Assembly: GCA_903928445.1 (NCBI GenBank)
Contig: CAIYRB010000087.1
Coordinates: forward strand, 1 to 64,000
DNA length: 64,000 nt
Direction: 5' to 3'
From: an uncultured Pseudomonadota bacterium
GTDB lineage: Bacteria > Bdellovibrionota_B > Oligoflexia > Oligoflexales > CAIYRB01
Shown: piece by piece, positions 30,778 through 47,140 of the stretch
How positions within the stretch are numbered: position 1 is the stretch's first letter
How the letters are laid out: each line of letters starts with the position of its first letter
The notes under the pieces: model-generated
Databases searched by the model: none
Told to the model about the DNA's origin: nothing
The model's input: only the letters and a program-made list of their open reading frames with translations
Made by a program: the position numbers and the translations under genes

Positions 30778-30789
30778 GCTCAACCTCGC

Positions 30790-32205
30790 TTAAATAGGGT
30801 GCGGTGGGAAGTCTACAGCATCGCTGCTCGCGCGCATCCCATAACTGGTCAATTGGTCGGTGAAGGCACGGCTTTGATGCAGGCGTCGCGGTAGCTCATG
30901 CAGCGTCCGGGCGCCGCTGCATAGCATCGCTGTTTTGAGCCCTTGGGCAAAGATCAGCAGGGCTTCATGCACGGCGTCCTCGGACAGCAAGGCCGCCCGC
31001 AGCAGCGGTAGGCCGATGCCACATAGGTCGGCGCCTAGCGCCACGGCTTTGGCGACGTCCAGTCCGTCGCGGATGCCGCCGGTGGCAACCAGCGGCATCT
31101 GCGGCAAGTCGCGACGCAGCAGCGCCATCGCCACTGCCGTTGGGATGCCCCAGTCGCGAAAGGTCGCGGCAACGGCGCGGGTGACCGCGGCGCTGGTGCG
31201 CTCGCCTTCGATAAAACTCCACGAGGTGCCGCCTTTACCGCCGCAGTCGAGGGCGGCCACGCCGGCCTCCTGCAGGCGGCGGGCCGTCTCTAGATCGAGG
31301 CCGGCACCGACCTCTTTGATCAGCAAGGGCACGCCAAGACGCTCGCGAATGGCGGCGATTTGCGCCAGCACACCGCGGAAGTCGCGGTCGCCCTCGACCT
31401 GGACGACCTCCTGCAGGACATTGACATGGATCGCTAGCGCATCGGCGCTGATCATCTCGACGGCTCGTTGACATAGCTCCAAGGCATCGACGCCGCGCAG
31501 CTGGGCGATGCCGATGTTGCCGATCAAAAATAGGTCGGGGACGGTCTTCTTGACGGCGAAGATCGCCGCATGTTGCGGATTGTCGAGGGCGACGCGCTGC
31601 GAGCCAACGCCCATCGGGATGCCGGCAGCCGCTGCGGCCCGTGCGAGCCGCAGGTTGATCTCGGCGCCTTGCGCTAGCCCGCCGGTCATGCCCGTGATCA
31701 GCAGCGGTAGGGCAAAACGGCCGCCAAGAAAGGTCCGACTCGTGTCGAGGTCGGCCCATGACAGCTCGGGCAGGGCCATGGGTCGCAGCAGAACGTCGCT
31801 GAAGCCGGTGTAGCGGTCGCTGGCCTCAATATCGGTCGTGGCGCAGATCTCGATGTGCTGGCTTTTACGGATCAGGGTGAGCAGATCCGCGAGGATGTCA
31901 CGCTGCCTAGGGTCGGTGATGCGGATGTGCGCCGGGGCCTTGCTCGGCGTCGTAAGAGAGGCGGTCGTTCGGTCCAGAGGGCCCGAGTCGTGGGCTTTGC
32001 CCTCCAACTGAAAGCTTCTCCCCGCGTCCAACACGATCGTCAGACTCCCGCTCGGCAACGTGCCTACATCCTGAAACTGGATGACCAAGGCATCGGCTGC
32101 CAGAGCCTGCACGAATCCAGCCCCTGCGGCGCTGTCGACCACGGCTAGGTGGCGGCGCAAGGTGACGAATGGGGCTGCGCTAGTGAGGTCGTCGCGGATC
32201 AGCAT
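30790..32205 (-). CDS. fni: Type 2 isopentenyl-diphosphate delta-isomerase with N-terminal extension
   Basis: The C-terminal 360 residues are a type 2 (FMN-dependent) IPP isomerase: RKSQHIEICATTDIEA, FGGR-type segment LGGRFALPLLITGMTGG, MGVGSQRVAL, IGNIGIAQL, HVNVLQEVVQ, LIKEVGAGL, DCGGKGGTSW, ATGGIRDGLDVAKAVALGADLCGIGLPLL. It interconverts IPP and DMAPP. The first about 110 residues are extra compared with the usual length of about 340-350. That part is beta-rich (VIQFQDVGTLPSGSLTIVLD) and not recognised, perhaps a small regulatory domain. No internal Met is available as an alternative start. It is the first gene of the operon, divergent from an ABC gene. Confidence 0.92.
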   Translation of the reverse strand: MLIRDDLTSAAPFVTLRRHLAVVDSAAGAGFVQALAADALVIQFQDVGTLPSGSLTIVLDAGRSFQLEGKAHDSGPLDRTTASLTTPSKAPAHIRITDPRQRDILADLLTLIRKSQHIEICATTDIEASDRYTGFSDVLLRPMALPELSWADLDTSRTFLGGRFALPLLITGMTGGLAQGAEINLRLARAAAAAGIPMGVGSQRVALDNPQHAAIFAVKKTVPDLFLIGNIGIAQLRGVDALELCQRAVEMISADALAIHVNVLQEVVQVEGDRDFRGVLAQIAAIRERLGVPLLIKEVGAGLDLETARRLQEAGVAALDCGGKGGTSWSFIEGERTSAAVTRAVAATFRDWGIPTAVAMALLRRDLPQMPLVATGGIRDGLDVAKAVALGADLCGIGLPLLRAALLSEDAVHEALLIFAQGLKTAMLCSGARTLHELPRRLHQSRAFTDQLTSYGMRASSDAVDFPPHPI

Positions 32206-33127: not shown

Positions 33128-33271
33128 TGGCTGCCTAGTCAATACTGGGAACTCAACGTCGACCAGGTCCACTGGGCCACCGTCCATGCCGTCCAGCTGC
33201 TTGCGGCCGAGAACGACCGCCTAAAGGCCGATGCCGTCAAGTTGGTATGGTATTTTTCCAGGATCAGTTAA
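33128..33271 (+). pseudogene. Open remnant directly following the ABC gene stop
   Basis: The frame of the MlaF-like gene continues after its TGA for 47 open codons that look coding (QYWELNVDQVHWATVHAVQ, then ENDRLKADAVKL), ending at TAA 33269-33271. There is no start codon or ribosome binding site. The helical ENDRLKAD end resembles C-terminal tails of larger surface or fibre proteins, but this is weak. It is most likely a gene remnant; it overlaps the end of the convergent PEGA lipoprotein gene. Confidence 0.3.
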
Positions 33272-34015
33272 AAGCGTCGTAAAAATTCGGCCAGCAGAGG
33301 GTCTGCGAGGCTGGTGGCAATGTTCAGGTGCGCGCGGCACATGGTGCCCATGACTGCGGGTAGCAGCCTCGTTCACCGGCTCGCGCAGCTGTTCAAAGCG
33401 GTCTTGCCGCACGGCCTCATCGACGTTGACGTCATCGCCTTGCGTTTGCATCTGCAGCATTAGTTTATATAGCCTAGCCAGGATGTTCTGGTTTACCTCT
33501 GCTGTTTGACCACCGTAATAATTACGTATCTGTTCCAACATGTAGTCTTCTGGATAGGACTTTTTCAAGCGCCGTAGCGCGGCCGACTCAGCTACATCCT
33601 GCGGCACCGTCATCGGTGGCGCTTTTGCTGCCTCCTCCGCGTCGCTTGCCAGCGCAAAGTGGACCTTGTCGCTCTCATAGGTCCAGATATGGTGATCCAA
33701 CCAATCGATGGCTGCGGTGATCAGGCCGAGCGAGCCAAAAAGGATATTACCCCAGAACGGATAGGCAATCCGCCGAACCAAGGTGTCCTCTTTGTCGTCG
33801 TAGCCGTCGAGAGTCGCTTTGACCTGTTGGTTGACGATTGGCTTGACCACCAGCTTACAAGGCGTCGTACAGGACTGACCATTGGCCACCGTAACGACAG
33901 CACCGCTTGGTTCAGAGCTAAACTCGGTTTCGTCGTCGCCAGCCACACCAACGACGATCGTAGCGCAACCGATTGTCAGGGTAGCGAGTAGGCTAATACA
34001 GGCGAATAACCACAC
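33221..34015 (-). CDS. PEGA-like lipoprotein, C-terminus probably frameshifted
   Basis: The product has a hydrophobic signal and lipobox TIGC (Cys about residue 17), then a PEGA-type domain (SSEPSGAVVTVANGQ, SCTTPCKLVVKP, ATLDGYDDKEDTLVRR) and a short hydrophobic hairpin (PFWGNILFGSLGLITAA), then a helical region. After QLREPVNEA the read sequence becomes His/Pro-rich and improbable. One base out of frame it continues as LLPAVMGTMCRAHLNIATSL and ends at 33268 as LLAEFLRRF. A one-base indel near 33370 is therefore likely. The start is uncertain: GTG 34015 overlaps motB by 23 bases; TTG 34030 or ATG 34090 would lengthen the signal peptide. It is downstream of the MotA/MotB-like pair. Confidence 0.6.
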   Translation of the reverse strand: MWLFACISLLATLTIGCATIVVGVAGDDETEFSSEPSGAVVTVANGQSCTTPCKLVVKPIVNQQVKATLDGYDDKEDTLVRRIAYPFWGNILFGSLGLITAAIDWLDHHIWTYESDKVHFALASDAEEAAKAPPMTVPQDVAESAALRRLKKSYPEDYMLEQIRNYYGGQTAEVNQNILARLYKLMLQMQTQGDDVNVDEAVRQDRFEQLREPVNEAATRSHGHHVPRAPEHCHQPRRPSAGRIFTTLLTDPGKIPYQLDGIGL

Positions 34016-34619
34016 GGCGCTGCCTACCAAGAAGCGTGTTCCGGTCAAGCTCGACCCCCTTTTCCGGCGTGAACGGCTTGGTATCGGCATAGGCCTCGAC
34101 ACGGATGCGTTTCGGTGCGACGCCGACGGCCTCTAAGTGTTCGCGGATCTGCATCGCGCGGGCACTGGATAACTCCCAGTTGGATTTATAAGCACCGCTA
34201 CGCATCGGCACCTCGTCGGTGTGACCCTCGACCGCTAGATGATATTTCTCGGCGTACGGCTTTACCACCGTCAGCACTTTGGCCATCGGCGCTTCCATGC
34301 TGGGCAGGATGTTGGCTTGACCGGAGGCGAAGGTGACGCCCGAATTAAAGGCAATTTCCAAACCTTCATCGGTCATTTGGACGCTGACCTCCTGGCTCAA
34401 CTTTTGCTCTTCAAGCGCCTGCTTGACCTTCTTGCTGGCCGATTCGAGCGACTCGGAGGCAGTTTCGCCACTCAGCGCCGCGGCGATCTTCTCCATCTTG
34501 CTGGTCTGGACGTGCGAGGCGGCAATCATGAGGACGAAGAACAACAGCAAGTTGGTGATGAGGTCGGCATACGACGTCAACCAACCTTCGTTCGTCGCGC
34601 GCAGGCGGCGTAGGGTCAA
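33993..34619 (-). CDS. MotB/OmpA-type stator protein
   Basis: The 208-residue protein has one N-terminal membrane helix with the stator proton- or sodium-binding Asp (LTSYADLITNLLLFFVLM, Asp about residue 19). A helical linker follows, then a C-terminal OmpA-like peptidoglycan-binding domain (VEGHTDEVPM, NWELSSARAMQIREHL, VEAYADTKP). This is the MotB architecture, somewhat shorter than flagellar MotB. Together with the upstream MotA homologue it should form an ion-driven stator anchored to peptidoglycan. The start is a TTG that overlaps the MotA stop (TTGA), with AGGTGG upstream. No flagellar genes are nearby. Confidence 0.88.
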   Translation of the reverse strand: MTLRRLRATNEGWLTSYADLITNLLLFFVLMIAASHVQTSKMEKIAAALSGETASESLESASKKVKQALEEQKLSQEVSVQMTDEGLEIAFNSGVTFASGQANILPSMEAPMAKVLTVVKPYAEKYHLAVEGHTDEVPMRSGAYKSNWELSSARAMQIREHLEAVGVAPKRIRVEAYADTKPFTPEKGVELDRNTLLGRQRRVVIRLY

Positions 34620-35350
34620 AGGGCACCACCTGATTGCTGGGCTCGACTCTCGCTGACTAAGCCAGCCACCGTCTTTTCTAACAACTCCAACTGAGTGAGG
34701 CGGTCGTTCAGCTGGTTATTGACCCGCGAGGACATCGGTCCACCGATGGCGGCACCTGTGGTGATGCCATATAGCGTCGCCAGAAGGGCCATCGCCATGG
34801 AGCCGCCGAGGTTAGACGAGTTTTCGGCCATGTTGCGAAACAGCTGCACCATGCCGGTGACGGTGCCAACCATGCCGAACGATGGCGCTAGGCGGCTAAC
34901 CATTTCCCAGCCTTCGATGACCGCGCCATACCGATGCATGTAATCAGATCGAAGCTGGGCGAAGCGTTCATCCAAGGTGGCGCCACTGAGTTGGCGTAGC
35001 AGCGCATCAGCGGCTACTCGTAGCTCAAGGGTGGTGCCGCGATCGGCCATCTCGAGGATGGTGGCACGGCGACCTTCGCGCCAGGCGCCGCGCATGTCTT
35101 CTAGTCCCTTGGCGGTCTGGATCTGTTCCCGCGACAGGGTGCTGGTCGATGGCAGGAGTTCGCGCAGGGATTGCAGCATCCGCCATAGCGCCCGTCGATC
35201 GATCGCGAGCAGCAGAGAGCCGATCACACCGCCAAAGACGACGAAGGCGGCATGTGGATCGAGGAAGCCGAGCTTGGCCGCCGACCGTTCCGACAGCGCG
35301 ACGAAGCCAACCATGATCAACGTCAAAAGACCTAGCAGAGGTGTGATCAC
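34616..35350 (-). CDS. MotA-type stator protein
   Basis: The 244-residue protein has four membrane helices: TPLLGLLTLIMVGFVAL, AAFVVFGGVIGSLLLAI, and the pair LAPSFGMVGTVTGMVQLF and ALLATLYGITTGAAIGGPMS, with the two conserved prolines (LAPSFG and GGPMS) of MotA/PomA. A cytoplasmic domain of about 90 residues lies between helices 2 and 3. GTG 35350, with TGGAG upstream, is chosen; longer in-frame starts only add sequence that is antisense to the divergent lipoprotein gene. It pairs with the MotB-like gene just downstream. It could power an extra flagellar stator or the adjacent envelope complex; the sequence alone does not decide. Confidence 0.88.
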   Translation of the reverse strand: MITPLLGLLTLIMVGFVALSERSAAKLGFLDPHAAFVVFGGVIGSLLLAIDRRALWRMLQSLRELLPSTSTLSREQIQTAKGLEDMRGAWREGRRATILEMADRGTTLELRVAADALLRQLSGATLDERFAQLRSDYMHRYGAVIEGWEMVSRLAPSFGMVGTVTGMVQLFRNMAENSSNLGGSMAMALLATLYGITTGAAIGGPMSSRVNNQLNDRLTQLELLEKTVAGLVSESRAQQSGGAL

Positions 35351-35450
35351 TGGGGCCAATGCTCCACAAACCAGATGATGCTGGTTGATTTTATTTAAGC
35401 TTATTTGCAGAATATATCCGCGAAGCTGACTTTTAGCAAACCCAACGCCG
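35351..35450. promoter_or_regulatory. Divergent intergenic region between stator pair and envelope operon
   Basis: The 100 bases separate the MotA-like gene from the first gene of the eleven-gene operon. They are markedly more AT-rich than the flanks (TTGATTTTATTTAAGCTTAT near 35383-35402), as expected for back-to-back promoters. No convincing consensus -35/-10 pair could be fixed by eye. Confidence 0.35.
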
Positions 35451-36164
35451 ATGAGTTCGTCGATGCTGAGTAGCCGCACCGCGCTGGTCGCCGTGCTATC
35501 TCTAAATCTAAACATCGGCTGTGTCACGCTGACCCATCCGCGCGGCGACTGGATCAAGCCGGTAAAGCTGCCCCTTGATGAAACGTCGCTTAAAGGTGCC
35601 AGCATCGGCATTGAATGTGGCGAGGGGCAGGCCGAAGGACGAGCTTGGCATCCGGCAAGTTTTGCTGGTTGCCGCGCCCTAGCGGGTTTGCTGCAAGGCA
35701 TGGGTGCCAAAGTAAGCGGTGCTCCCGGCTTACTGCCAAAGCCAAAGCCGGGCGAAGGCGAGGTCGACGACGTTGGGGAAGACAGCCAGAACTCCACTCC
35801 AGTCGACTTTAGCGTGCGCTACGTGGACCGTGACCACAGTCGCGACTACTGCAGTTGGACGCTGCCGCTGTTTATCCTAAGCTTCTCCCTGTTTCCTTGT
35901 GTCGAGGATTTGACCGCTGGAGCCGAGATCCAGCTGGTGCAAGCGAATGGGTCGATCGACGGCGTTTATCCCTTGCGCCTAGACGTCACCGCAATCTATG
36001 GCCCTATTGCGCTTTACTACCTGGCCTTGCGCGGGCTAGAGTTGCCGCAGTCCCAATTCGAGAGGCAGCAGCGGCAGGAGCGAGCTCTGATTCAGTACAG
36101 TGCGGGCCTCATATACAATTATCGGCTACGCACGCAGCTGTCCACTGCGGAGGTCAAAGGGTGA
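35451..36164 (+). CDS. Lipoprotein, first gene of envelope operon
   Basis: The 237-residue product has a lipoprotein signal with NIGC as lipobox (Cys about residue 24). It contains SLKGASIGIECGEGQAEGRAW and a helical GCRALAGLLQGMGAKV, a hydrophobic segment WTLPLFILSFSLFPCVE (about 136-152) that could be a second membrane contact, and a polar C-terminus. The family is not recognised. The start ATG lacks an obvious ribosome binding site; ATG 35463 is an alternative. The stop overlaps the next start (GTGA), which begins a chain of overlapping genes running to 47140. Confidence 0.65.
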   Translation: MSSSMLSSRTALVAVLSLNLNIGCVTLTHPRGDWIKPVKLPLDETSLKGASIGIECGEGQAEGRAWHPASFAGCRALAGLLQGMGAKVSGAPGLLPKPKPGEGEVDDVGEDSQNSTPVDFSVRYVDRDHSRDYCSWTLPLFILSFSLFPCVEDLTAGAEIQLVQANGSIDGVYPLRLDVTAIYGPIALYYLALRGLELPQSQFERQQRQERALIQYSAGLIYNYRLRTQLSTAEVKG

Positions 36165-36745
36165 TCCAGGCCGTCGTGCTGCAGATCTTGTTTATGATTG
36201 GTCTGGCCAGCCCGGGCAATGCCGGGATGTCGCCGGAGGCCATGTATGACTTGGCCCTGCTGCGCGATGAGCCACCTGCATGTCGCGAGCCCTCGGTGAT
36301 GGAACAGCAAGAACGTGGTGTGGGAGGGCGTGGCAAAGCCTCGACCTATAGCCTAGACGGCGTGTACTTATGCGAACGCACGATCTTTGACTATGGCCAG
36401 CGCGATTCCTACAGCGACTTTCTGCTGGCGCAGGCCCCCGCGCGGGCCTTACTCGCGGCGCGGGCCGCAGAGCAGCTGCTGACCGCGCAGCCCAAGCTCA
36501 AGAACAAGATCTGGACGGTGGCTGTCACCAGTGGGCCTGCGGAGCTCAGGCCGCACCTTGAGCGCGTGTACCGCCAAGCCTTGAGTCAGACTTTGGCTGG
36601 CATTCGCGTCGCTCGCGCCAGCACGCCCGCGCCCGGAGGTATCTCGGTCTTAGTGGCTGTGCGCCCGGCGATAGAGGCGGATCTGCTCTTCGCGGTCACG
36701 GCCAAGTCGGTAGACGGCGAGGCACAGCACCTGTGGTCGCTTTGA
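36161..36745 (+). CDS. Secreted hypothetical protein of envelope operon
   Basis: The 194-residue product has a signal peptide (about 1-20, FMIGLASPGNAG) and a mixed alpha/beta periplasmic body with LKNKIWTVAVTSGPAELRPHLERVY and a basic, Pro-containing segment. It has two Cys (EPPACREP, VYLCERT) that could pair. The GTG start is fused to the upstream stop (GTGA) and has GGAGG seven bases ahead, which rules out the longer open frame beginning at 35855. The family is not recognised. Confidence 0.6.
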   Translation: MIQAVVLQILFMIGLASPGNAGMSPEAMYDLALLRDEPPACREPSVMEQQERGVGGRGKASTYSLDGVYLCERTIFDYGQRDSYSDFLLAQAPARALLAARAAEQLLTAQPKLKNKIWTVAVTSGPAELRPHLERVYRQALSQTLAGIRVARASTPAPGGISVLVAVRPAIEADLLFAVTAKSVDGEAQHLWSL

Positions 36746-37917
36746 ATCTTCACCACCCTATCCGCGCCGCTCTCGTCGCCAGTCTTTGCTGGCTGAGCCT
36801 AAGCGCAGCGTCGCAGGCGCTGGCCGCGGCTAAAGAGCCTGGAGGCCCGATTACCATGGACGTGCGGCTCATGGCAGCCGACCTCGTCGATGAGATGGTC
36901 TACTCATGGCAGGATGCGCCACCACTCAGCGGCAGAGCCAAACTGGTTCTGGCCGATATCGCCGCGCCCGTCGGCCTCGATGAACGTTTTAATGTCCTCG
37001 TGGAAAACCGCATCTTCGAGCTGCTGCGGCAAAACCCAGGTATTCAGGTCGAGTTGTCGCACTGTGGGCCGTGCACTCGTTGGGTGGCTAAATCTAACCC
37101 GCAAGGAACGATCCTCGGGCGCGGTATCGACCAGCCGGAGATCCTAGCGCAGATGCTGCACGATATGCCCGAGCGCCAAGCGCTCAGCCTTGATTTTGAG
37201 GCCGAAGGGCGCGAGCTGGTGCTGCGCGCGCAGATCTATGAACTAACCGCGTCTCAGCGCATCCTTTGGGCACAGACCTTTAGCACGAGTTTGAGTGCCC
37301 GCCGGGTGCTGCGCGAGGCGAATCCGCTGCTTAGTTTAGCCGAGGCCCGTGAGCAGCAACGGCAGCTCCTCGCCGGTCGCGACCCCATCGAAATCTCCTC
37401 GCGCTTGGCTATTCGCAGCTTTAACAACAAGTCCTCGGCGCCGGTGACGGCTGTGCCGCTGCCATTCATTGAGCAAAGCGTCGAATCAGTGCCCTTGCCT
37501 AAACGGTCCATCCGCGCCGGGGTCACGGTCGGGTTTACTAGCATCAAGGACTCGCTGAGTGCCTGGAGTGTCGGCGGGCATGTCATGGGGCTTATGTTTC
37601 GCGATAAGCCGTCGCTGATTGCGCCGGATCTATATTGGACCTTCGGCGCCCAATATATCCGCATGCGCGGACCTGGAGCTGCGTCCTTCGCCCAAGGTCA
37701 AACCGACCTGGATACCCTGCGAAAAACCACCGCCGAACCGCGCGCGACCTTGGTCGCCTACCGACTGGGACTTGAGGTGCATATCAAGTACCGCATGGGG
37801 CTACTCGCGTTTATCGAGGACATCCCGATCTTAAAGGGCAACGATAGCGTCGAGCAGAAGTCGCTGCTGGGCATGCCGTACCACTGCATCGGCGGCGGGG
37901 TGGTGGTGAGATGGTAA
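36733..37917 (+). CDS. Exported protein with FlgO/TolB-like N-terminal part and barrel-like C-terminus
   Basis: The 394-residue product has a signal peptide (ending SQALAAA), then an alpha/beta region with LVLADIAAPVGLDERFNVLVENRIFELL, GTILGRGI and QIYELTASQRILWAQTFS. This recalls the lipoprotein-type FlgO/CsgG fold that detects or remodels envelope structures (weak resemblance). The C-terminal 150 residues alternate in a barrel-like way and end VVVRW. The start is ambiguous between GTG 36733 and TTG 36742, the latter giving the TTGA overlap pattern used elsewhere in this operon. Confidence 0.55.
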   Translation: MVALNLHHPIRAALVASLCWLSLSAASQALAAAKEPGGPITMDVRLMAADLVDEMVYSWQDAPPLSGRAKLVLADIAAPVGLDERFNVLVENRIFELLRQNPGIQVELSHCGPCTRWVAKSNPQGTILGRGIDQPEILAQMLHDMPERQALSLDFEAEGRELVLRAQIYELTASQRILWAQTFSTSLSARRVLREANPLLSLAEAREQQRQLLAGRDPIEISSRLAIRSFNNKSSAPVTAVPLPFIEQSVESVPLPKRSIRAGVTVGFTSIKDSLSAWSVGGHVMGLMFRDKPSLIAPDLYWTFGAQYIRMRGPGAASFAQGQTDLDTLRKTTAEPRATLVAYRLGLEVHIKYRMGLLAFIEDIPILKGNDSVEQKSLLGMPYHCIGGGVVVRW

Positions 37918-38885
37918 ACCGTATCACGACCTACCTGCGGTTGATGTTGCTAGCGACCTGTTCCTGGTTGTTTAGTGCTAGTCCGGGTTTAGCGATGCTG
38001 CCGCAGACCGCTTCAGACCTCCAAGTGTTAGAGGATGCCCTGCGCCAAGCGACCGAAGCGGACCCGTCGCTGCTCAAGCAGGCGACGCCGATGCTGCTCG
38101 CTCCACCGCTCCACCACTGGCGTGAATCGCGCGACGATTTTGCCGCAGTCGCCCTTGCGACCCTAACGACGATTTTTAACACACCCCAAGCGATCATCCC
38201 CTGTCCCGACTGCGATGCTTGGCGGCTCAATGTGCGGCCAGGCAATGGGCTTGACATCTACAATGGCGAATTGTCGCTGGGTGAGCTGGGGAGGTTGCAA
38301 AAGGATCATCGCTATAGTGCAGCCAAAGCCCTCACGGTCATTCAGGAAACCCCCTCCGGGGTGCAGGTGCGGATCACCAGTTTGACCGACGGCAGGCTGA
38401 TTTGGAGCCGTTTAGCCGACAGTAGTGAACGCCTAGCCCAGGTTAAGCCGTGGACCAACTTCGCGGCGGAACGCGACCGCCGTCTGCGCGGCGAGTCGCT
38501 GTCTTACGTGTTCATCAACTTGGGCTTATATCCAAACCCCTTGTTCCAGCTCGAATTCATCGAGCAATGGGGCGACCGCAATCAACACCTTAGTGGCGTG
38601 GCGATCTCGCTGCTTAATCCGAATGTGTCGGTAGGTATCGTCTATCACTATATGATGCCAAAATTGCGGCGCCTCCACCTAGGCGGCAGCCTCTATTTCC
38701 CGTTGCAAAACCTCGCCCAAAGCTCCGGCAGTTCGCGCGACGTGTCGTCGCAGTTCGTCGGTCAAGGCATGGTCGAGTATACCTTTGCCAACAGCTACGG
38801 CGTCTTTGGCTCGATATCGTCGAAGGGCCAGTTCAGCATCGGCTTTAACTTCTATAACCCGCTCTTCATGCCGTTTCTATTGTGA
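37911..38885 (+). CDS. Exported protein with FlgO-like N-terminal part and barrel-like C-terminus (paralogue-like)
   Basis: The 324-residue product has a signal peptide (LFSASPGLA) and the same two-part plan as the upstream gene. An alpha/beta N-terminal half contains a CxxC (IIPCPDCDAWRL, comparable to CGPCTRW upstream) and ITSLTDGRLIWSRLA. The C-terminal half has short amphipathic strands (YVFINLGLYPNPLFQLEFIE, FGSISSKGQFSIGFNFY). The shared CxxC and order suggest the two are diverged paralogues. ATG overlaps the preceding stop by seven bases. Outer-membrane location is inferred. Confidence 0.6.
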   Translation: MVNRITTYLRLMLLATCSWLFSASPGLAMLPQTASDLQVLEDALRQATEADPSLLKQATPMLLAPPLHHWRESRDDFAAVALATLTTIFNTPQAIIPCPDCDAWRLNVRPGNGLDIYNGELSLGELGRLQKDHRYSAAKALTVIQETPSGVQVRITSLTDGRLIWSRLADSSERLAQVKPWTNFAAERDRRLRGESLSYVFINLGLYPNPLFQLEFIEQWGDRNQHLSGVAISLLNPNVSVGIVYHYMMPKLRRLHLGGSLYFPLQNLAQSSGSSRDVSSQFVGQGMVEYTFANSYGVFGSISSKGQFSIGFNFYNPLFMPFLL

Positions 38886-38895
38886 GGACAGTTTG

Positions 38896-39552
38896 ATGAA
38901 CTGCTCTGGTCCCGCCCGCTCTTGGTGGCTGCTTTTAGCCCTGGCCTTGCTGCCCGGCCTGACTGCGTGCAATTCCACCCGCGAGTTCTGGCGCTACGTC
39001 GTCGAGGATGAGGTCGAAAAGCCGATGGCCAAGCGCGACAAGGGGCAGGAAGATGCGCCAAGAGTGCTGTCGCCGCATAACGTCAAGGTCGTTTACAGCG
39101 ATGGCTCGACCTCGACGGAGGTGTTGATCCCGGTGCTTAGTTCCGGCCAGCAGATCGTCATCGATCACAAGAGCCGCGGCGCCCCGCAAGCCATCGCCCT
39201 GGCCCCTCTGGCCCCAGCCGATGCCGATAAAGATCTCGAGGATGCCTACGTCAAAGGCGGCAATCCCGTCAGCAAAAAGAGCCCCGAAGTGAGCTTGGTG
39301 AAAACCGAGGGACGCATCCGCGAGCTGGTCAAGGACGGCAACTACGCCTTGGCTCTCGAATATGCCGAACAACTCCTGAAGCGCTACCCAAGCCATGCCA
39401 AGACGCTGCGCACCAAAGGCTCGCTGCTGCTCAAAATGGGTGAGCGCGAAGCAGCCCTCAAGGCCTACCAGAAGGCCCAGGACATCGAGCCTGATCCACG
39501 CGTCGAGGAACAGATCAAGGCCCTGGACAAGGATAGATCCCCTAAACAATAA
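38896..39552 (+). CDS. TPR-containing lipoprotein
   Basis: The 218-residue lipoprotein (lipobox LTAC, Cys about 25) has a polar linker and a C-terminal pair of TPR-like helices: EGRIRELVKDGNYALALEYAEQLLKRYPSHAK and GEREAALKAYQKAQDIEPD. Such proteins act as periplasmic scaffolds. The ATG follows GAGGA at seven bases; an open frame further upstream overlaps the preceding gene and is not used. Small helical-repeat lipoproteins are also part of the Myxococcus Glt and Tol/Pal-type assemblies, which fits the operon context but is not proof. Confidence 0.7.
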   Translation: MNCSGPARSWWLLLALALLPGLTACNSTREFWRYVVEDEVEKPMAKRDKGQEDAPRVLSPHNVKVVYSDGSTSTEVLIPVLSSGQQIVIDHKSRGAPQAIALAPLAPADADKDLEDAYVKGGNPVSKKSPEVSLVKTEGRIRELVKDGNYALALEYAEQLLKRYPSHAKTLRTKGSLLLKMGEREAALKAYQKAQDIEPDPRVEEQIKALDKDRSPKQ

Positions 39553-39591
39553 ATGATCGCGGCGCACAGCGCGCTTAAGGAAGGGCAAGTT

Positions 39592-41292
39592 ATGCGGTGG
39601 ATGGGAATGGCGAAGTTATGGGTCGTAGTGCTGAGTTTATCGTCGTGGACGGTTGCTGCGACGGCGCTGGCTCAAGGCGTGCAGTTCCCGCCCGCGGTGC
39701 GCCAGCAGGCAAGCGAAATCCAGGACCGATTCGCCGCTGTGCTCGACGAGGAATGCCCAGCCGGCAGCTGCTACTCGCTCGGTTGCAAGCCCAGTCGCTT
39801 TGAGACCCTCGATCAAACCGCGGATTCCTCGCTGCCCGGCCTCGAGACATCCGGCACGATGGTTGCGGCGCAATACCGGCTCACTTCGGTGCTCTGCGAA
39901 CTAGCCTACGAACCGACGTTAAAGAACGATGAACTAACGAATTTGCGTCAGCGTATTCGCCAGAAGGTCAAGACCGTCGGCGTCGATGTGCAGCTGTCCA
40001 CCAAGCCACTCCAACCCAAGGCCGACGCCGCCGCCCAGGCGGCTCAGGCCAAAGACACGCAGCACCAAGTACCGCCGACGTGGCAAGAAGGCCTGTGGAA
40101 CCGCCTGCTGCCTTTTCTACCGTGGTTTGTCTTGGCGATTCTGCTGGCCGCGATTACGCTACTTCTCGTCTGGGGCATCCGCCGTCTCGGCACTGGACAA
40201 AGCCGGCGTGCTAGCCAAGCAAGAACGCGGGCCACCGATCTGATGACGCAGGTGCGCACGGGCGAAGCCGAGCCAACCCCGCACATGCTGCTGACGCGCG
40301 TGGAGCAGATCCGCGGCGAGCTCAAGGCGAACAAGCGCTTAGTTGAGCTGACCCTGAAAAAGCACTTCGACGAAGAGCATTATCCCGAACTCTGTTCGTT
40401 TCTGCAGTATTTTGGCCCAGAACTCCTCGTTCCCTTCAAAGAGAAGGCCGAATATCGCACCGCCCTCGGCACCCTCAGCGAAAAATACGCGGCTAACGAG
40501 GGCAACGACGACCCGCATGCGATGTGGAAGTTTCTCGGCAGCCTCGAACGCGACATGACTGCCGCCAAGGTGCGCATCGATGCCGAGCCCTTGGCGGATG
40601 ACTTCAACTTCTTGATGGGCCTCGAGGTCGACGAGTTCGTCGGCGTTCTCCGCGATCTGACGGAAGAAGAAGCGATCGCCGCCGTGGCCTACGCACCTAG
40701 GGCCTTGCGCGAACGCTTTTTCACCAGTGCCAACCCGGCTTTTACCGCCAAATTTGTCGAACACCTCACCAGTGTCGACAAGATGTCGGATAGCTTTGTC
40801 CGCGGCGTGGCGCAAAAGCTGCGCCGCATCTATACCGATAAGGGCGATTCGCTGCGGACCATCCGCGTCGACCGCATCCCCTTGCTGGAAGCTGCGCTCA
40901 ATGCCCTGGAGCCGGCTAAACGCCGCCAACTGATCGCCAACATCGGCAAGGACAATCCGAGCTTTGTCCATAATATGGCGCCGGCGGTATTCCTCGACGA
41001 CGCCTTGCCCCTGCTGCCTGTCGAAGTCTTGACCGAGGCCCTACTGTTGATCACTCCCGAGGAGGCGGGGCAGTACCTAGCCGGCTTCTCTTGGTCGGGA
41101 GATGTGCTGGCGAAGATCAACCCACGCCTCGCCGAGGCCATTAAGAAGCAGATGCCGCTCGTTCCACTTGATGGCTCTAAAGGGGCGCGCATCGCGCATG
41201 AAAAGTTCTCTGCTTACATCAAGCGCCTGCATGCCGATGGGACGATCGACCTGCGAAAAATTAATTCGAGTTTAGTCGAGCCGATGTCGTGA
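39592..41292 (+). CDS. Single-pass membrane protein with large cytoplasmic helical domain, FliG-reminiscent
   Basis: The 566-residue protein has a signal-like N-terminus, a periplasmic part (about 28-170) with several Cys (EECPAGSCYSLGCKPS), one membrane helix (about 171-199, WFVLAILLAAITLLLVWGIRR) and a C-terminal cytoplasmic domain of about 365 residues built of helices. The segments EVDEFVGVLRDLTEEEAIAAVAYAPR, ALNALEPAKRRQLIANIGK, and ALPLLPVEVLTEALLLITPEEAG recall the armadillo-like helices of FliG/MgtE_N, but the match is only suggestive. A protein spanning the inner membrane with a cytoplasmic superhelix beside a MotA/MotB pair could couple stator motion to the envelope complex. ATG 39592 has GGAAGGG upstream. 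Confidence 0.65.
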   Translation: MRWMGMAKLWVVVLSLSSWTVAATALAQGVQFPPAVRQQASEIQDRFAAVLDEECPAGSCYSLGCKPSRFETLDQTADSSLPGLETSGTMVAAQYRLTSVLCELAYEPTLKNDELTNLRQRIRQKVKTVGVDVQLSTKPLQPKADAAAQAAQAKDTQHQVPPTWQEGLWNRLLPFLPWFVLAILLAAITLLLVWGIRRLGTGQSRRASQARTRATDLMTQVRTGEAEPTPHMLLTRVEQIRGELKANKRLVELTLKKHFDEEHYPELCSFLQYFGPELLVPFKEKAEYRTALGTLSEKYAANEGNDDPHAMWKFLGSLERDMTAAKVRIDAEPLADDFNFLMGLEVDEFVGVLRDLTEEEAIAAVAYAPRALRERFFTSANPAFTAKFVEHLTSVDKMSDSFVRGVAQKLRRIYTDKGDSLRTIRVDRIPLLEAALNALEPAKRRQLIANIGKDNPSFVHNMAPAVFLDDALPLLPVEVLTEALLLITPEEAGQYLAGFSWSGDVLAKINPRLAEAIKKQMPLVPLDGSKGARIAHEKFSAYIKRLHADGTIDLRKINSSLVEPMS

Positions 41293-42038
41293 ACAGCCAA
41301 AGGTCATTCAAACATGCACCCTTGGGACTGCTTCTAGCGGTCCTAAGCACCGGCTGCTACGAGGGCTGGGACGTGCCGCAGGTCAAAACGGGCAGCCCAG
41401 CACCGAACAAGACGGTGCCCGTCGCAACGAAGACCTTTGCCTACATCCTGTTTCAACCGATCACGATGAGTGCGGGTGCGCTGGCGAGCGATACCTGCTT
41501 TTCGGCATCGGGTCTGCGCCAGTATCGTTCCAACGAGTGGTCCATGCGGGTGGATTCAATCGGGGCCGCATTGCAAGCTCTAGCCGATACCGTCACCGTG
41601 GTGCCGATTCAAATCAGCGCCAGCGACTGCACGAAGCTCGCCGCCGTGCAAGCCGCAGCGATCGATACGCAGCCTTGGGGTGCGGCCAATTCGCCTGCCG
41701 ATGTCACGGGCAACCGCGCGGTCGTCCATTTAAAGGCAGCCTTCTGGGAAGGCGATCCCGGACTCAGTCCACCCGACGTCGTAGCAACCCAGGAGTGGGC
41801 CGCGTGGCAAACACTAAGAGACTCGGGTAAACCGGCCTTCAGCCGTCTATACACCGTCATTTCCACTAGCACCGCTAGCGGCTATTTTAGCGAGTGGTTA
41901 GGAAAAGCCGGTCCAAGTCTTAAGGGAACCTCCATTGATCAAGTCGATCCTAGTAACAGCGGCATCGCCGCGCGCCAGAGTCGGGTGAGCAGCGATACCG
42001 ATGCGCTGGTGACTTGGTTGCAAGGGCAGCAACCATGA
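41289..42038 (+). CDS. Lipoprotein of envelope operon
   Basis: The 249-residue product has a lipoprotein signal with lipobox STGC (Cys about 23) followed by a Pro-rich linker and an alpha/beta domain (FAYILFQPITMSAGALASD, TVVPIQISASDCTKL, RAVVHLKAAFWEGD). The GTG start overlaps the preceding stop (GTGA) and its stop overlaps the next ATG (ATGA). No family is recognised. It is encoded directly before another, larger lipoprotein that also begins its mature part with a short linker and VAYIFF-like strand, so the two may be structurally related. Confidence 0.6.
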   Translation: MNSQRSFKHAPLGLLLAVLSTGCYEGWDVPQVKTGSPAPNKTVPVATKTFAYILFQPITMSAGALASDTCFSASGLRQYRSNEWSMRVDSIGAALQALADTVTVVPIQISASDCTKLAAVQAAAIDTQPWGAANSPADVTGNRAVVHLKAAFWEGDPGLSPPDVVATQEWAAWQTLRDSGKPAFSRLYTVISTSTASGYFSEWLGKAGPSLKGTSIDQVDPSNSGIAARQSRVSSDTDALVTWLQGQQP

Positions 42039-44125
42039 CGCTGGGCGCCGCAAAGGTTTGGCAGGTTGCGGTGCTCGGCATGGCCGCGGCGGGGGCAGCG
42101 CTCTTAGGTTGCGGGCATAAGGTTCCGCTTACGGCTGATTTTGGCAGCATCGACTTCGGTTCTGCGCATTGGTTTGCTAATGAGCAGGTGGCTTATATTT
42201 TTTTCAGCTTGAGCGAACGTTCCTCTCGCTTGGTGCATTCAGGTTGGCAGATGCGATGGAGCGCGACGTCGGCGGATGGCGGGGTTGAGGAGCATGCGTT
42301 TGCACCGATCGATTTCAACCAAGGCGTCCATGAACATTTACAGCTGCCTTGCGGTGACCAGCGCATCTGTAGCAGCTTTAGCTTTAAGAGCGCCCGTCCG
42401 GTGAACAGCGTCGACCTCAAATTCCTTTACGACGCCGACTCCCCGACCGACCTGCAAAAGAGCTTGGATGTCGCCAAACACGCCGCGGGTACGTCGTCTG
42501 ATGCGTTCAGTGCCCTTGCCTACGGCGTCTTTGACGAACCCAACAGCCATATGCAGGTGCGTATCCATCATAATTTTGGCTCGCCACAAGACGAGCTTGT
42601 GCCGACGTTTGGCTTAGTCCGCAGGTTCCACGCCAACAGCGTCGTGCTGCATGGGATCGACACGGTGACGGTCAGAAAGGCACAGAGCGCTAGCGCGACG
42701 CCGCTGCTCTATCCGGCGAGCTTTTGCGCCGGCCAAACGGGCAGCGATGACCTCCGCTTTGCCGGTACCAGCGCATGGTTTAACGGCAGCCTCGACAAGG
42801 CGCAGGGGCAAAACGGCGCCTGCTTTCAGATTGAGGCCCTAGACAAGCAGGGGGTCCCTCTGCCCAGTGGCGTGCAGAACTCCTTTGGCCGGCGCAATCC
42901 CGAGATCAGCAACCCCATTGGCCCGACCATCCTAACACCGTTGACCCAGACGACGCAGATTCCCATTGCAGTGCGTATCTGTCCAGATGATCCAGCCGCG
43001 GGTAGCATGGTCGATGAGGACTTCTTTTTCTACCAAGAATTCATCCTGGGCATGAGCCGACGGCCGACCGATTTATGCTTTCGCATCGGCAAAGAGTCGG
43101 TGTTTGCCAAGGACTTTGCGGCCATGCTGGCATCGCGTTTGGCTGATGCTCGCAGCAAGGCCACCACGAGCAATGATTATTTGTTTGTCGTCGCCTTGCA
43201 CGAGCTGTTTACCTCCGAGTTTACCCAGATTCAGTCTAGTATCAGCTCCGCTCTATACAACATGATCAACGCCGAGGCCCATACGGCCTCACCGCGTCTG
43301 GTCGGAGCCTTTGTCTACGATTCGACGGTCAACTTCGTGCCGACAGCGACGCAGCGCCAATCGATCATCTGGTGTCCACAGACCTTATTGCCGCTGGTAC
43401 TGTCACCGCAGACGGCACCATTAGCTGATCAGAATTGCACCATCACGGCAGCAGCTGAGCTAGATCTCCAGTTGATCAATTTCGTCGCTCCTTTGGGGCC
43501 ACTGCCTTCGGTGTCGGTGTACCGCGACTACATGAAAAAATATGGCGATAAGGGCTTGGCGCACAACCCAAGCCTGCAGCTCTACAGTGTGCCGACCGGC
43601 GTCAATACGCTGAACGAAGCCAGCAAGGCCGTCACCTACTTCGATCACGAACGCTTTGTGATCAATGCTGGCGAAGCGGCTAGAATGTGCCCGGAGCGGG
43701 AAGATAAGACTCTCGCCTCGTTCCGCATCCGCACCGCCACGCAAGCCGACGACGTCGCTGGCACGTCGGTAGGTGCCATCAATAAGCTGTGGTTGTCTGC
43801 CGATGCACCGGGCGAGTACCGCATCGGCATCGCCTGGGACTATCCGTTTTGGGGCGGCATCAATTATAAAGCGGCCTTGACGGGTAAGATTGCTTCTGTG
43901 GTGCCGTATCAAAAAAGCAGCTCTGCCTACGAAGCTCTCGGCGACCAAAAGTGGTCTACCGGCAGCTGGGACTTCGGTAAATACACGCAGCGCTGCACGC
44001 GCTACTGCGATAACCCATTCTTTGACGCAACCGGTACCTATCAGGCGAGCCAGACGTGGCGCAACTTCCAAGAAAACAGCTGTCCAAACCCGGTTTATCC
44101 GCAGCCCAGCGCGGGAGGGACGTGA
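42035..44125 (+). CDS. Large lipoprotein of envelope operon
   Basis: The 696-residue lipoprotein (lipobox ALLGC, Cys about 26) is the largest protein of the operon. It is mostly beta-rich, with scattered paired Cys (LPCGDQRICSS, TQRCTRYCDN), and no recognised domain or catalytic motif. Size, Cys content and lipid anchor suggest an outer-membrane-attached periplasmic or surface scaffold. ATG 42035 overlaps the upstream stop; the stop TGA shares a base with the following ATG (TGATG), so the neighbours are translationally coupled. Confidence 0.65.
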   Translation: MTLGAAKVWQVAVLGMAAAGAALLGCGHKVPLTADFGSIDFGSAHWFANEQVAYIFFSLSERSSRLVHSGWQMRWSATSADGGVEEHAFAPIDFNQGVHEHLQLPCGDQRICSSFSFKSARPVNSVDLKFLYDADSPTDLQKSLDVAKHAAGTSSDAFSALAYGVFDEPNSHMQVRIHHNFGSPQDELVPTFGLVRRFHANSVVLHGIDTVTVRKAQSASATPLLYPASFCAGQTGSDDLRFAGTSAWFNGSLDKAQGQNGACFQIEALDKQGVPLPSGVQNSFGRRNPEISNPIGPTILTPLTQTTQIPIAVRICPDDPAAGSMVDEDFFFYQEFILGMSRRPTDLCFRIGKESVFAKDFAAMLASRLADARSKATTSNDYLFVVALHELFTSEFTQIQSSISSALYNMINAEAHTASPRLVGAFVYDSTVNFVPTATQRQSIIWCPQTLLPLVLSPQTAPLADQNCTITAAAELDLQLINFVAPLGPLPSVSVYRDYMKKYGDKGLAHNPSLQLYSVPTGVNTLNEASKAVTYFDHERFVINAGEAARMCPEREDKTLASFRIRTATQADDVAGTSVGAINKLWLSADAPGEYRIGIAWDYPFWGGINYKAALTGKIASVVPYQKSSSAYEALGDQKWSTGSWDFGKYTQRCTRYCDNPFFDATGTYQASQTWRNFQENSCPNPVYPQPSAGGT

Positions 44126-44874
44126 TGGCAGGTTACGGCATAAGCATTGGCCAGTGGCGCCGCGAATGGTGCGGCCGGGTCCTGACTGTCGGCGTTTGGG
44201 CTGTTGCTGCGTCGGCAAGCGCGGGTCACGCGCAAGAAGGCATGAGCGTCGCCGGGATCGTTAAAGAAGTGACCTCGCGCGCCGAAAGCCCACATGCCTA
44301 CGATTGGCGGCGCGCTGCTGCGGAGGTGCAACTGGGCTACGGTTACACCGCTGAAGCCAATAACTTCGACACCGATACCGTCGAACTCGGCGTTGGCATA
44401 CCGGTGAGCGGCGGCTCACTTCTGCGCTTTGGTTTGCGCCGGGCGATGGTCCACAGCACGCCCTCGTCCAATGATATCGGGCGCACGCCGTTCAAACAAG
44501 GCGCACAGTCGACGCGCTATGAACTCTTTGGCGGCTATGGCTTTGGTCTCCTAGAGGGGCGATCGATGACCCGCTTTAGTCCGATGTTGCCGGATTTTGA
44601 GCAAATCCTGCTAGCTTGGGGCGGGGCCCACTACAACCACCTAAACCGAACGTGGCTTCCCATGAGAAGCGATCCACCAGCCCCTCTGCCTGGTCAGGAT
44701 CCTGCTTATGCCAAGATCAATATCGAGATCGGCTTGCGCTGGCAGGTCTACATGCCGCAAAGCTTCGGTCTGTCGTTTGAGGCGATGCAAGTGCGACCTA
44801 TGGGCGGATCTGGCAAGTTGAGGTACTGGGCTTACTATAGCGGCGGGGTGCTATGGTCGTTCGGAGCGCATTAA
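44125..44874 (+). CDS. Outer-membrane barrel candidate of envelope operon
   Basis: The 249-residue product has an unusually long signal region (Trp/Arg-containing n-region, cleavage near SASAGHAQEG) followed by alternating strands with aromatic girdle residues (AAAEVQLGYGYTA, LLRFGLRRAMVHS, YELFGGYGFGLLEG, INIEIGLRWQVYMPQ) and a final SGGVLWSFGAH. This is typical of a small beta-barrel of about 8-10 strands, though it does not end in Phe. GGGAGGG precedes the ATG. It is followed, with a 22-base overlap, by the helical-repeat gene. Confidence 0.6.
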   Translation: MAGYGISIGQWRREWCGRVLTVGVWAVAASASAGHAQEGMSVAGIVKEVTSRAESPHAYDWRRAAAEVQLGYGYTAEANNFDTDTVELGVGIPVSGGSLLRFGLRRAMVHSTPSSNDIGRTPFKQGAQSTRYELFGGYGFGLLEGRSMTRFSPMLPDFEQILLAWGGAHYNHLNRTWLPMRSDPPAPLPGQDPAYAKINIEIGLRWQVYMPQSFGLSFEAMQVRPMGGSGKLRYWAYYSGGVLWSFGAH

Positions 44875-46658
44875 AAATCTCGGTTTGGTTGCTAATATCT
44901 AGCTTGTTTAGCTCAGCCTATGCTGCTGACACTGAGGTGCTAACTAAGGCCCGTGAGCTTCTCAAGAATGGCGAGGCAAAAGCCGCCGGCTTGTTATACC
45001 GCCAGCTCGAACCGGGGTCCCCCCTATGGTCGGAACGCCTGACGGACACGATTCGTTATCATCTATTGAATAAACGTCCGCTCGAAGCTTGGCGCCTCAC
45101 CGAACTCGCCAGTCGCATGGGCACTGATGTGCAAGGTCTGCCGTATTACCGCGCCCTAAGTGCGACTTCGGGGCATGTCTGCACCCTACACACCCGCGAT
45201 CAGCCGTGGTCGTGGATCCGCTTGATGGAAGCGCACATCTACCGCTTTCCTTCGCGCTTTCAGCAGGGTGCCTACCGTGCCGATGCTTATGGTGCTGCAG
45301 ATCGAGGCGTCCTCCAACACCACTTGGATGAGGAGCAAACGCAGCTTCTCGCTGATATTCCTGCTGCGGTACTACTTCAAGGGACCGGCTGCAGCTGGCT
45401 GGGCGACCGGCTAGTCGATCGTGCGACCGCCGGGCATTTTGAATATCTAAGTCTAAAGGCCTGGTTTGAGGCGCGCATGGCCGCCACCTCCCCAGAGCTT
45501 AACATCGGCGGTGAACAAGGCGTGGAGCTGCGTCTTCTTGAGCTTGCTGCGAAGGAAAAAGATCAGGAGCTGCAGCGTCAGGTACTCGCTCAATACGCCA
45601 ACCTCAGCGCTGCCACATGGTTAGCGCTGCCTGAGCAAGAGCGCCGCTTTATCTGGCAACAGCTGGTCCTTGCTGAGGTCTTGGCAAAGCCACCCTACGG
45701 TCCTAAAGCCAAAGAGTACGCGCTGGTCAAAGCCATTGCATTAGGCCTAAACACCGCCGATGCGGCTGAATGGCTCGGTCTGTTGGCCTGGGAAGACCTG
45801 CCTGCAGTCGAGCGCGAGCAGCTGGTGGCCCACGCCTTGAAGATTCCGGACATTTCCCACCGTGGCTATCTTGTGGCCCTATCGGCGGAGTCGGCCTACC
45901 GACATGGCGATATGCCAGCAGCTCTGGCTATCGTGCGGCGCTTGTTGCTTCTCGGCGAAGCCGACGGCGACAACGAGCTCGAAGCCTTCGCCACCGGTCT
46001 CGCCGGGCAAATCTTCGCCGAGTATCGCTACGACGAGGCGATGCTCGGTGCTCTGCAAAATGCTTTGCCGAGTACCGCCTGGGGCGCGGTCTTTCGCCGC
46101 CAGCTGCTGCTGCAGTCATTGACCGGCAATGGCAAGGGATTTGATACCTTGGCGGCAAGCGTGATCGGCAGTCGTCTGAGGAATGTCAAATTCAAAGTCG
46201 ATGAGTTGGCGCTGCTCAAAGCCTTGGCGCATCGTCAAAGCGCAGACTTTACCAAGGTCATCCACGACTGGGAACGCTCCTCCAGGTCCAGTTCTCACGC
46301 CACGACCTTTCTCGCCGATCTCGGCGCTGCGGTCTTGCAGCTAAACAAAGATGAGCGAAATGCCGTCGCGGGCTACCTGGACAAGATCGCCACGCTTTTA
46401 AAGATGCAGATCGGTCACGGCAGCGGCGAAGGTCGCCTGTTGGAGTTAACTCAGCTGTTTTCCGGTGAACCCAAGGACCGCTACGACGCCGGCGGTGAAA
46501 CGGTGCGCGAGGGAACCGTCGCCGTCGGTGTCGCTGATCTACGTAGACGCAACCAGCTCTCCTTCCCCTTCACTTGGTCACCACCATCACATTTGCCGCT
46601 GCGCGACCTTTTGGTCCAACCCAAAGGCGTCGGCGACCGGGAATGGGAGATTCGGTGA
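44853..46658 (+). CDS. Exported helical-repeat (TPR-like) protein
   Basis: The 601-residue product has a signal peptide (LISSLFSSAYAAD) followed by almost entirely helical sequence with TPR/SEL1-like spacing (VLTKARELLKNGEAKAAGLLYRQL; HGDMPAALAIVRRLLLLGEA; further pairs to about residue 540). It lacks a lipobox. Large periplasmic TPR proteins act as scaffolds that bridge inner- and outer-membrane parts of trans-envelope machines. The ATG overlaps the barrel gene by 22 bases with GGGGTG upstream, and the stop overlaps the next GTG (GTGA). Confidence 0.7.
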   Translation: MVVRSALKISVWLLISSLFSSAYAADTEVLTKARELLKNGEAKAAGLLYRQLEPGSPLWSERLTDTIRYHLLNKRPLEAWRLTELASRMGTDVQGLPYYRALSATSGHVCTLHTRDQPWSWIRLMEAHIYRFPSRFQQGAYRADAYGAADRGVLQHHLDEEQTQLLADIPAAVLLQGTGCSWLGDRLVDRATAGHFEYLSLKAWFEARMAATSPELNIGGEQGVELRLLELAAKEKDQELQRQVLAQYANLSAATWLALPEQERRFIWQQLVLAEVLAKPPYGPKAKEYALVKAIALGLNTADAAEWLGLLAWEDLPAVEREQLVAHALKIPDISHRGYLVALSAESAYRHGDMPAALAIVRRLLLLGEADGDNELEAFATGLAGQIFAEYRYDEAMLGALQNALPSTAWGAVFRRQLLLQSLTGNGKGFDTLAASVIGSRLRNVKFKVDELALLKALAHRQSADFTKVIHDWERSSRSSSHATTFLADLGAAVLQLNKDERNAVAGYLDKIATLLKMQIGHGSGEGRLLELTQLFSGEPKDRYDAGGETVREGTVAVGVADLRRRNQLSFPFTWSPPSHLPLRDLLVQPKGVGDREWEIR

Positions 46659-47140
46659 CGCCTAGCAGCTGGCTCCTCGTCGGCAAATGGTGTGGGCTGC
46701 TGCTCATCGGGATGCTGTTTTGGAGCAGCAGGATTGGCGACGACCCCTCGGTGCCCGACGACACATCACCGCTGCATGTACAGACGCCGTCTGGATCAAA
46801 AGCGACGAGTGCAACCAGCGGCCGATCAAGCCCTCCCCGCGAGCTGCTGCCCGTAGCTCCCGATGGCGGCTTGGATCGCCGCACGTTTATCCTGGCGTTC
46901 AAGCGCCAGGCGGACTTTGAATTGATCGCCTGCTTAAAGGCGTGGGAGGTCTCGCCGGGATCTGTTGCGGTCAGCGCGGTGCTCGACCAGCAGGGGCAGC
47001 TGCGTCACTTGAATTCCCTAGACCCGGCCAGGCCCTTGCCTAGCTGTGCCGAGGAGGCGATCACCGCGATGCATTTTGCCGCCAGCGGGCGGCAACTACT
47101 AAGACCGACAGTGGTTCTGCAGTGGCGGATCGACTGGTAA
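46655..47140 (+). CDS. Single-pass protein with AgmX/TonB-like C-terminal domain
   Basis: The 161-residue protein has one N-terminal membrane helix (LVGKWCGLLLIGMLFW), a polar Pro/Ser-rich linker, and a C-terminal domain with the AgmX/PglI- or TonB-C-like pattern: a helix with one Cys (LIACLKAWEVSPGSV), strand AVSAVLDQQGQLRHLNSL, second Cys in PLPSCAEEAITAMHF, then VVLQWRIDW. In Myxococcus a protein with this domain (AgmX/GltJ) belongs to the gliding machinery. It is the last gene of the eleven-gene operon (GTGA overlap with the helical-repeat gene, GGGAG upstream). Domain identity is by pattern only. Confidence 0.62.
   Translation: MTPSSWLLVGKWCGLLLIGMLFWSSRIGDDPSVPDDTSPLHVQTPSGSKATSATSGRSSPPRELLPVAPDGGLDRRTFILAFKRQADFELIACLKAWEVSPGSVAVSAVLDQQGQLRHLNSLDPARPLPSCAEEAITAMHFAASGRQLLRPTVVLQWRIDW

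Follow-up and report, generated by a model that had tools for sequence, protein, structure and literature searches.

Within the window, the whole stretch of 64,000 nucleotides analysed here, a minus-strand set of genes for MotA, MotB and a PEGA lipoprotein (33221-35350) faces eleven open reading frames on the plus strand (35451-47140), which mostly overlap, with joins of a few bases. The gap between the start of MotA and the eleven-gene operon is about 100 bases. Starts were corrected from homologues and overlaps (MotA, GTG 35350; g2, GTG 36161; g5, ATG 38896; g8, ATG 42035; g11, ATG 46643), and the features are as follows.

33221-34102, minus strand: PEGA-domain lipoprotein, downstream of MotB and overlapping it; the true start is probably inside
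33993-34619, minus strand: MotB, stator subunit with proton-channel helix SYADLITNLL and an OmpA-type peptidoglycan-binding domain
34616-35350, minus strand: MotA, flagellar-type stator subunit
35451-36164, plus strand: g1, lipoprotein with lipobox NIGC (by eye); orthologues in G031, G038, G030, G022, G053 and G056
36161-36745, plus strand: g2, small exported protein; orthologues adjoin g1 in the same genomes
36733-37917, plus strand: g3, periplasmic alpha/beta-like domain with a pair of conserved cysteines, then a barrel-like stretch at the C-terminus
37911-38885, plus strand: g4, exported protein and candidate barrel, with an orthologue in every g6 operon that extends to it
38896-39552, plus strand: g5, TPR lipoprotein (TPR_2, 1e-8), core component of both versions of the system (alignment of both)
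39592-41292, plus strand: g6, membrane-anchored FliG-like protein (family profile against PDB FliG; topology)
41289-42038, plus strand: g7, lipoprotein of divergent-type loci only (orthologues in L008, L039 and L040)
42035-44125, plus strand: g8, large Cys-rich lipoprotein; orthologues in all complete g6 operons
44122-44874, plus strand: g9, small outer-membrane barrel candidate (orthologues; barrel-type C-terminus in relatives, by eye)
44853-46658, plus strand: g10, periplasmic helical-repeat protein (orthologues)
46643-47140, plus strand: g11, single-pass protein with a weak TonB/AgmX-like tail (orthologues)

Orthologues of these genes were found in eight further genomes and dN/dS against a 95%-identical sister locus (L008, from a lake-sediment MAG) was 0.02-0.29 with g1, g2 and g11 left out, which together exclude chance open reading frames. 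The tested genes are under purifying selection, with the lowest values in g5 (0.017), MotA (0.047) and g6 (0.061). Both gene sets of the original prediction are thus real by their open reading frames, Pfam matches, orthologues and dN/dS, the PEGA match (PF08308, E 0.003) being under the Pfam cut-off; an orthologue of the PEGA gene adjoins MotAB in L008, L039 and L040. Lipobox-like cysteines behind a signal peptide, called by eye and hydropathy, are present in the PEGA lipoprotein and in g1, g5, g7 and g8. The barrel status of g3, g4 and g9 is a matter of C-terminal patterns alone. Profile searches of g3, g4 and g8 against PDB returned no matches, and g8 had none in Pfam or NCBIfam either. The TonB/AgmX-like character proposed for g11 survives as a weak myxo_SS_tail match (0.028) in one of five orthologues, with no stronger match. 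Pfam detected no rod, hook, export or FliM/FliN genes among the operon proteins, and a scan for promoters and terminators gave nothing above chance. In the sister genome g10 (L008:15203-16904) is split into two frames past residue 395, by a frameshift or an assembly error.

MotA matched PF01618 (1.4e-16), and MotB matched both MotB_plug (PF13677, 2.4e-13) and OmpA (PF00691, 4.2e-16). Against PDB the MotB family profile found MotB at 7e-33, while that of MotA found MotA/PomA at 7e-27 over its full length (profile positions 2-232), with ExbB/TolQ absent from its matches. The YAD motif with its proton-binding Asp was invariant in the MotB alignment. A stator tree, which included stator paralogues from the genome of the window and from related genomes, placed the MotAs of the system on the MotA side and not the TolQ/ExbB side (support 100/100), standing apart from the flagellar MotAs; one joint clade of the two system MotA groups was compatible with the data (p-AU 0.21). 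Judged from its sequence, the stator belongs with the flagellar type (MotA/PomA) and not with Agl/Tol/Exb.

The most telling part of the operon is g6, of which the original prediction had recognised the single pass but missed the FliG-like domain. By eye and hydropathy g6 has a signal peptide, a Cys-rich periplasmic domain, one transmembrane helix at about 168-198 and a cytoplasmic domain resembling FliG_M and FliG_C. Searched alone in Pfam, the g6 of the window gave sub-threshold matches to FliG_C (0.15) and MgtE_N (0.03). A profile of the family built with eight relatives, searched against PDB, put FliG first (1lkv 2.7e-9, 4fhr 2.2e-8, 3ajc 1.5e-7), with MgtE at 0.24 only. A longer family of membrane-FliGs, of 750-970 aa, was found in the same phylum; FliG_M and FliG_C were above the Pfam threshold in all 13 of its members, its profile matched PDB FliG at 1e-14 and hhalign related it to the g6 family with a probability of 98.9%. 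On these profiles g6 ends in a FliG-like middle and C-terminal domain. Proteins of both families begin with an exported region containing paired cysteines, cross the membrane once and end in a FliG-like C-terminal half; the periplasmic Cys module occurs once in g6 and as two repeats in the long form. In a tree of the g6 family, whose long branches confine its use to this point, the membrane-FliGs fall outside the flagellar FliG group.

The periplasmic modules might be read by eye as alpha-beta-beta-alpha-beta, like ring-building motifs, which is a guess. Homology of the periplasmic domain to FliF, also suspected by eye, was rejected when hhalign against FliF (YscJ_FliF ring domains) gave no match, and a FliG_N suspected in the cytoplasmic linker had no profile match in g6 or in the long family. 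A PDB profile search with the periplasmic domain of the long family was without match, and AlphaFold of g6 with two sequences gave a pLDDT of 37 and no usable model. Searches for carriers outside the phylum found none among viral contigs and, among plasmids, nothing but a true fliG, and a scan of genome contigs with one sequence found solely the sister MAG.

Neither the EHPQ motif, the FliM contact of FliG, nor the acidic pair matching E. coli FliG D288/D289 is kept in alignments of g6, where Lys/Gln or similar residues occupy the D288/D289 sites in either alignment register. The long family largely retains a Glu-Asp pair and an EKPx-like motif. As a torque partner it therefore seems closer to convention, whereas g6 seems to have diverged. 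D288 and D289 are the residues of E. coli FliG that contact MotA (numbering as in PMC12505986).

The stator genes and the operon are linked in other genomes. In G031 and G038 the arrangement is divergent as in the window, with g1 and g2 of G031 inverted behind MotA. A single operon in G030, G022 and G053 runs g1-g2-g3-g4-g5-MotA-MotB-g6 and then g8 to g11 where the contig continues, G056 has g3-g4-g5-MotA-MotB and the start of g6, and MotA-MotB are immediately upstream of g6 in the operons of these four genomes. In G027 MotB lies directly before g6, with g8, g9 and onward to the contig end. A second version forms one operon in G048 and G050, consisting of a g3-like gene, a TPR lipoprotein, MotA, MotB and the long membrane-FliG. 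The same order is implied in G052 by the positions of three matches, and G053 and G056 have at least the part from the TPR gene through MotA-MotB to the long membrane-FliG. Alignments showed g3 and g5 to be homologous between the two versions; g3, like g5 a core component of both, is present in 34/58 genomes. Across most of the order the parts of the second version sit at three loci: a g3-g5 pair, MotA-MotB beside clpS-clpA, and the membrane-FliG alone.

Several neighbours of the split version recur. A ClpA-like gene adjoins the long-system MotA-MotB in 12/12 such loci (e.g. L224, L225, L227, L229, L230, L237-L241), and in L224 Pfam identified ClpS (2e-34) and AAA_2/Clp_N. In seven loci (among them L231:10813-12635, L234:9033-10665 and L235:6868-8179) the unlinked g3-g5 pair is preceded by two conserved genes of about 210-340 aa; these have no Pfam match, are not g1/g2 by profile and are candidates for further parts of the long version. 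The solo long membrane-FliG (L046-L053, L058) comes after YkuD L,D-transpeptidase and DsbA-like genes, with PilM and secretin genes a few kb away (by Pfam in L058).

Co-occurrence was assessed across 58 genomes by Fisher tests that ignore kinship. The membrane-FliG and its MotA were both present in 27 genomes, both absent from 28 and discordant in three (27/1/2/28, p 8e-13), and among flagellated genomes only p was 1e-10. Membrane-FliG and g3 agreed in 53/58 genomes (30/1/4/23). Presence and absence vary inside at least three families (f6, f8, f12). Stator and operon co-occur in every genome with g6 and share one operon in several, and on these grounds they belong together. The original prediction of a single distinct energised envelope machine had named a lack of such co-occurrence as its refutation; the co-occurrence was found, and that part of the prediction is supported.

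With a probability of about 0.58, the genes of the locus specify a motor of the envelope, powered by ions and distinct from the flagellum of the cell, whose MotAB would act on a FliG tethered in the membrane and send force across the envelope. MotA and MotB would form a flagellar-type stator fixed to peptidoglycan through the OmpA-like domain of MotB, and its partner would be the FliG-like M and C domains of g6, carried on one transmembrane helix and not in a cytoplasmic C-ring. Ion flow would turn the MotA ring, which would push the FliG-like domain of g6, and the motion would pass through the transmembrane helix and periplasmic domain to the TPR lipoprotein g5, to g3 and on to the lipoproteins and barrels of the outer membrane (g4, g7-g11); these would then move, open or drag a cell-surface structure. 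We infer from the gene set that the products assemble into one complex, in which g6 would form a ring, receive torque and rotate, and along which the force would take this path; a classical MotA contact would be uncertain for g6 given the loss of the acidic pair and EHPQ. Our guess for the biological task is movement on surfaces or the extrusion of some structure at the cell surface.

The torque unit shares with that of the flagellum the stator family, the MotB plug and OmpA domain and the FliG_M/FliG_C domains. It differs in having its FliG-like domain anchored in the membrane together with a periplasmic domain of its own, whereas FliG is a soluble cytoplasmic protein whose FliG_N is bound to FliF. 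The locus also lacks FliF, FliM, FliN, rod and hook genes and has outer-membrane lipoproteins and barrels instead, with the full flagellar set elsewhere. The closest engineered counterpart is a Salmonella FliF-FliG fusion (PDB 8z4d/8z4g), in which FliG is likewise joined to a protein that sits in the membrane and reaches into the periplasm, but here the joining is natural and the periplasmic domain is without detectable FliF homology. A more specific and tentative form of the motor reading, which we would not hold as the likelier outcome, is a second natural MotAB-FliG motor with a one-piece membrane rotor, a periplasmic ring replacing FliF, a dedicated stator and a surface machine without a filament. 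Its phylum-wide core would be g3, the TPR lipoprotein, MotA, MotB and membrane-FliG, with outer-membrane parts added in some lineages such as this one.

Away from the locus, the genome of the window encodes true FliF and FliG, one more FliG and two further MotAB pairs, and every intact carrier of the system has a separate flagellum. An accessory role at that flagellum is unlikely but has to be weighed: membrane-FliG with its own MotAB could provide an extra ring, a brake, alternative stators or a periplasmic scaffold, the TPR lipoprotein and outer-membrane rings resembling other motors with extra periplasmic rings, and the FliG-like domain could interact with flagellar stators. Membrane-FliG is confined to genomes with a flagellar FliG, occurring in 31/49 of these and in 0/8 of those without (p 0.0009, kinship ignored), but most of the latter are small and reduced, and flagellum and system may both have been lost from them. 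About 18 flagellated genomes do without the system, so that it is no standard flagellar part and is dispensable for flagella; its genes are outside flagellar clusters in the loci read and the stator tree gives it a stator lineage of its own. The second FliG homologue of this genome (G000:C39, L152:7359-8354) is complete with 331 aa, lies away from the main flagellar FliG and matches TIGR00207 at 2.9e-64, just below the cut-off; similar copies are present in many genomes of the order.

A Tol/Ton-like energised complex, in which the FliG-like domain docks or gates and does not act as a rotor and which serves outer-membrane upkeep or transport, is rather improbable. The many outer-membrane lipoproteins and barrels, the weak TonB/AgmX-like tail of g11 and the loss of torque residues from g6 would suit it. 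Tol-Pal and ExbBD-TonB have in common with the proposed motor a stator-driven link from inner to outer membrane, but here the stator subunits belong to another clade (MotA/PomA with an OmpA-domain MotB, not TolQR/ExbBD), the partner is FliG-like and the long members keep both FliG domains in 13/13 cases. The Agl-Glt gliding machinery of Myxococcus, to which the original prediction compared the locus, similarly combines an ion-driven stator with periplasmic TPR proteins, barrels and lipoproteins. Membership of Agl/Glt is not supported: MotA falls with MotA/PomA and not with the TolQ/TolR-type AglRQS, Agl-Glt has no FliG part and NCBIfam, which may not have a model for each Glt protein, gave no Glt match at 0.01. 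AglR/AglRS is grouped with generic TolQ/ExbB-type transporters in PMC12505986. Zorya defence was also rejected, for although MotB resembles ZorB (1.7e-18), MotA has no ZorA match and the proteins scanned contained no other Zorya component. The fallback that an extra flagellar stator sits beside an unrelated envelope operon can be dismissed, for while the divergent strands of the window require no shared transcript, gene order in other genomes, with MotAB inside the same operon and adjoining g6, and co-occurrence reject it.

FliG and its MotA torque contact are regarded as the hallmark of the flagellum. A library of open-access papers, which lacks preprints and many journals, yielded no description of a FliG that is naturally tethered to the membrane and paired with a MotAB of its own, and the available parts of a 2025 study and a 2026 review describe no such membrane-FliG motor. 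The gene set looks like an undescribed motor made of flagellar torque parts without a flagellum of its own. If the motor reading is true, the torque unit would be seen to work outside flagella, on a FliG anchored naturally in the membrane and served by its own stator and outer-membrane components. Such a motor would offer an independent case for asking which contacts between MotA and FliG are indispensable and by what route motors of this type evolved. The locus supplies a definite set of candidate genes, divided into core and accessory ones, and bears on the question of gliding motors near Bdellovibrio-like bacteria.

Elsewhere in the same genome a TolQ/TolR-like pair with large TPR proteins (L153:1-4094 and L152:13054-19723, G000:C39) is perhaps a separate Agl-type or Tol-type envelope cluster. 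Upstream of the locus the window carries mevalonate-pathway-like genes (25539-32205), which by eye resemble HMG-CoA reductase and type 2 IPP isomerase, and just beyond the operon, on the other strand, is a response-regulator protein with several TPR repeats (48514-50652).
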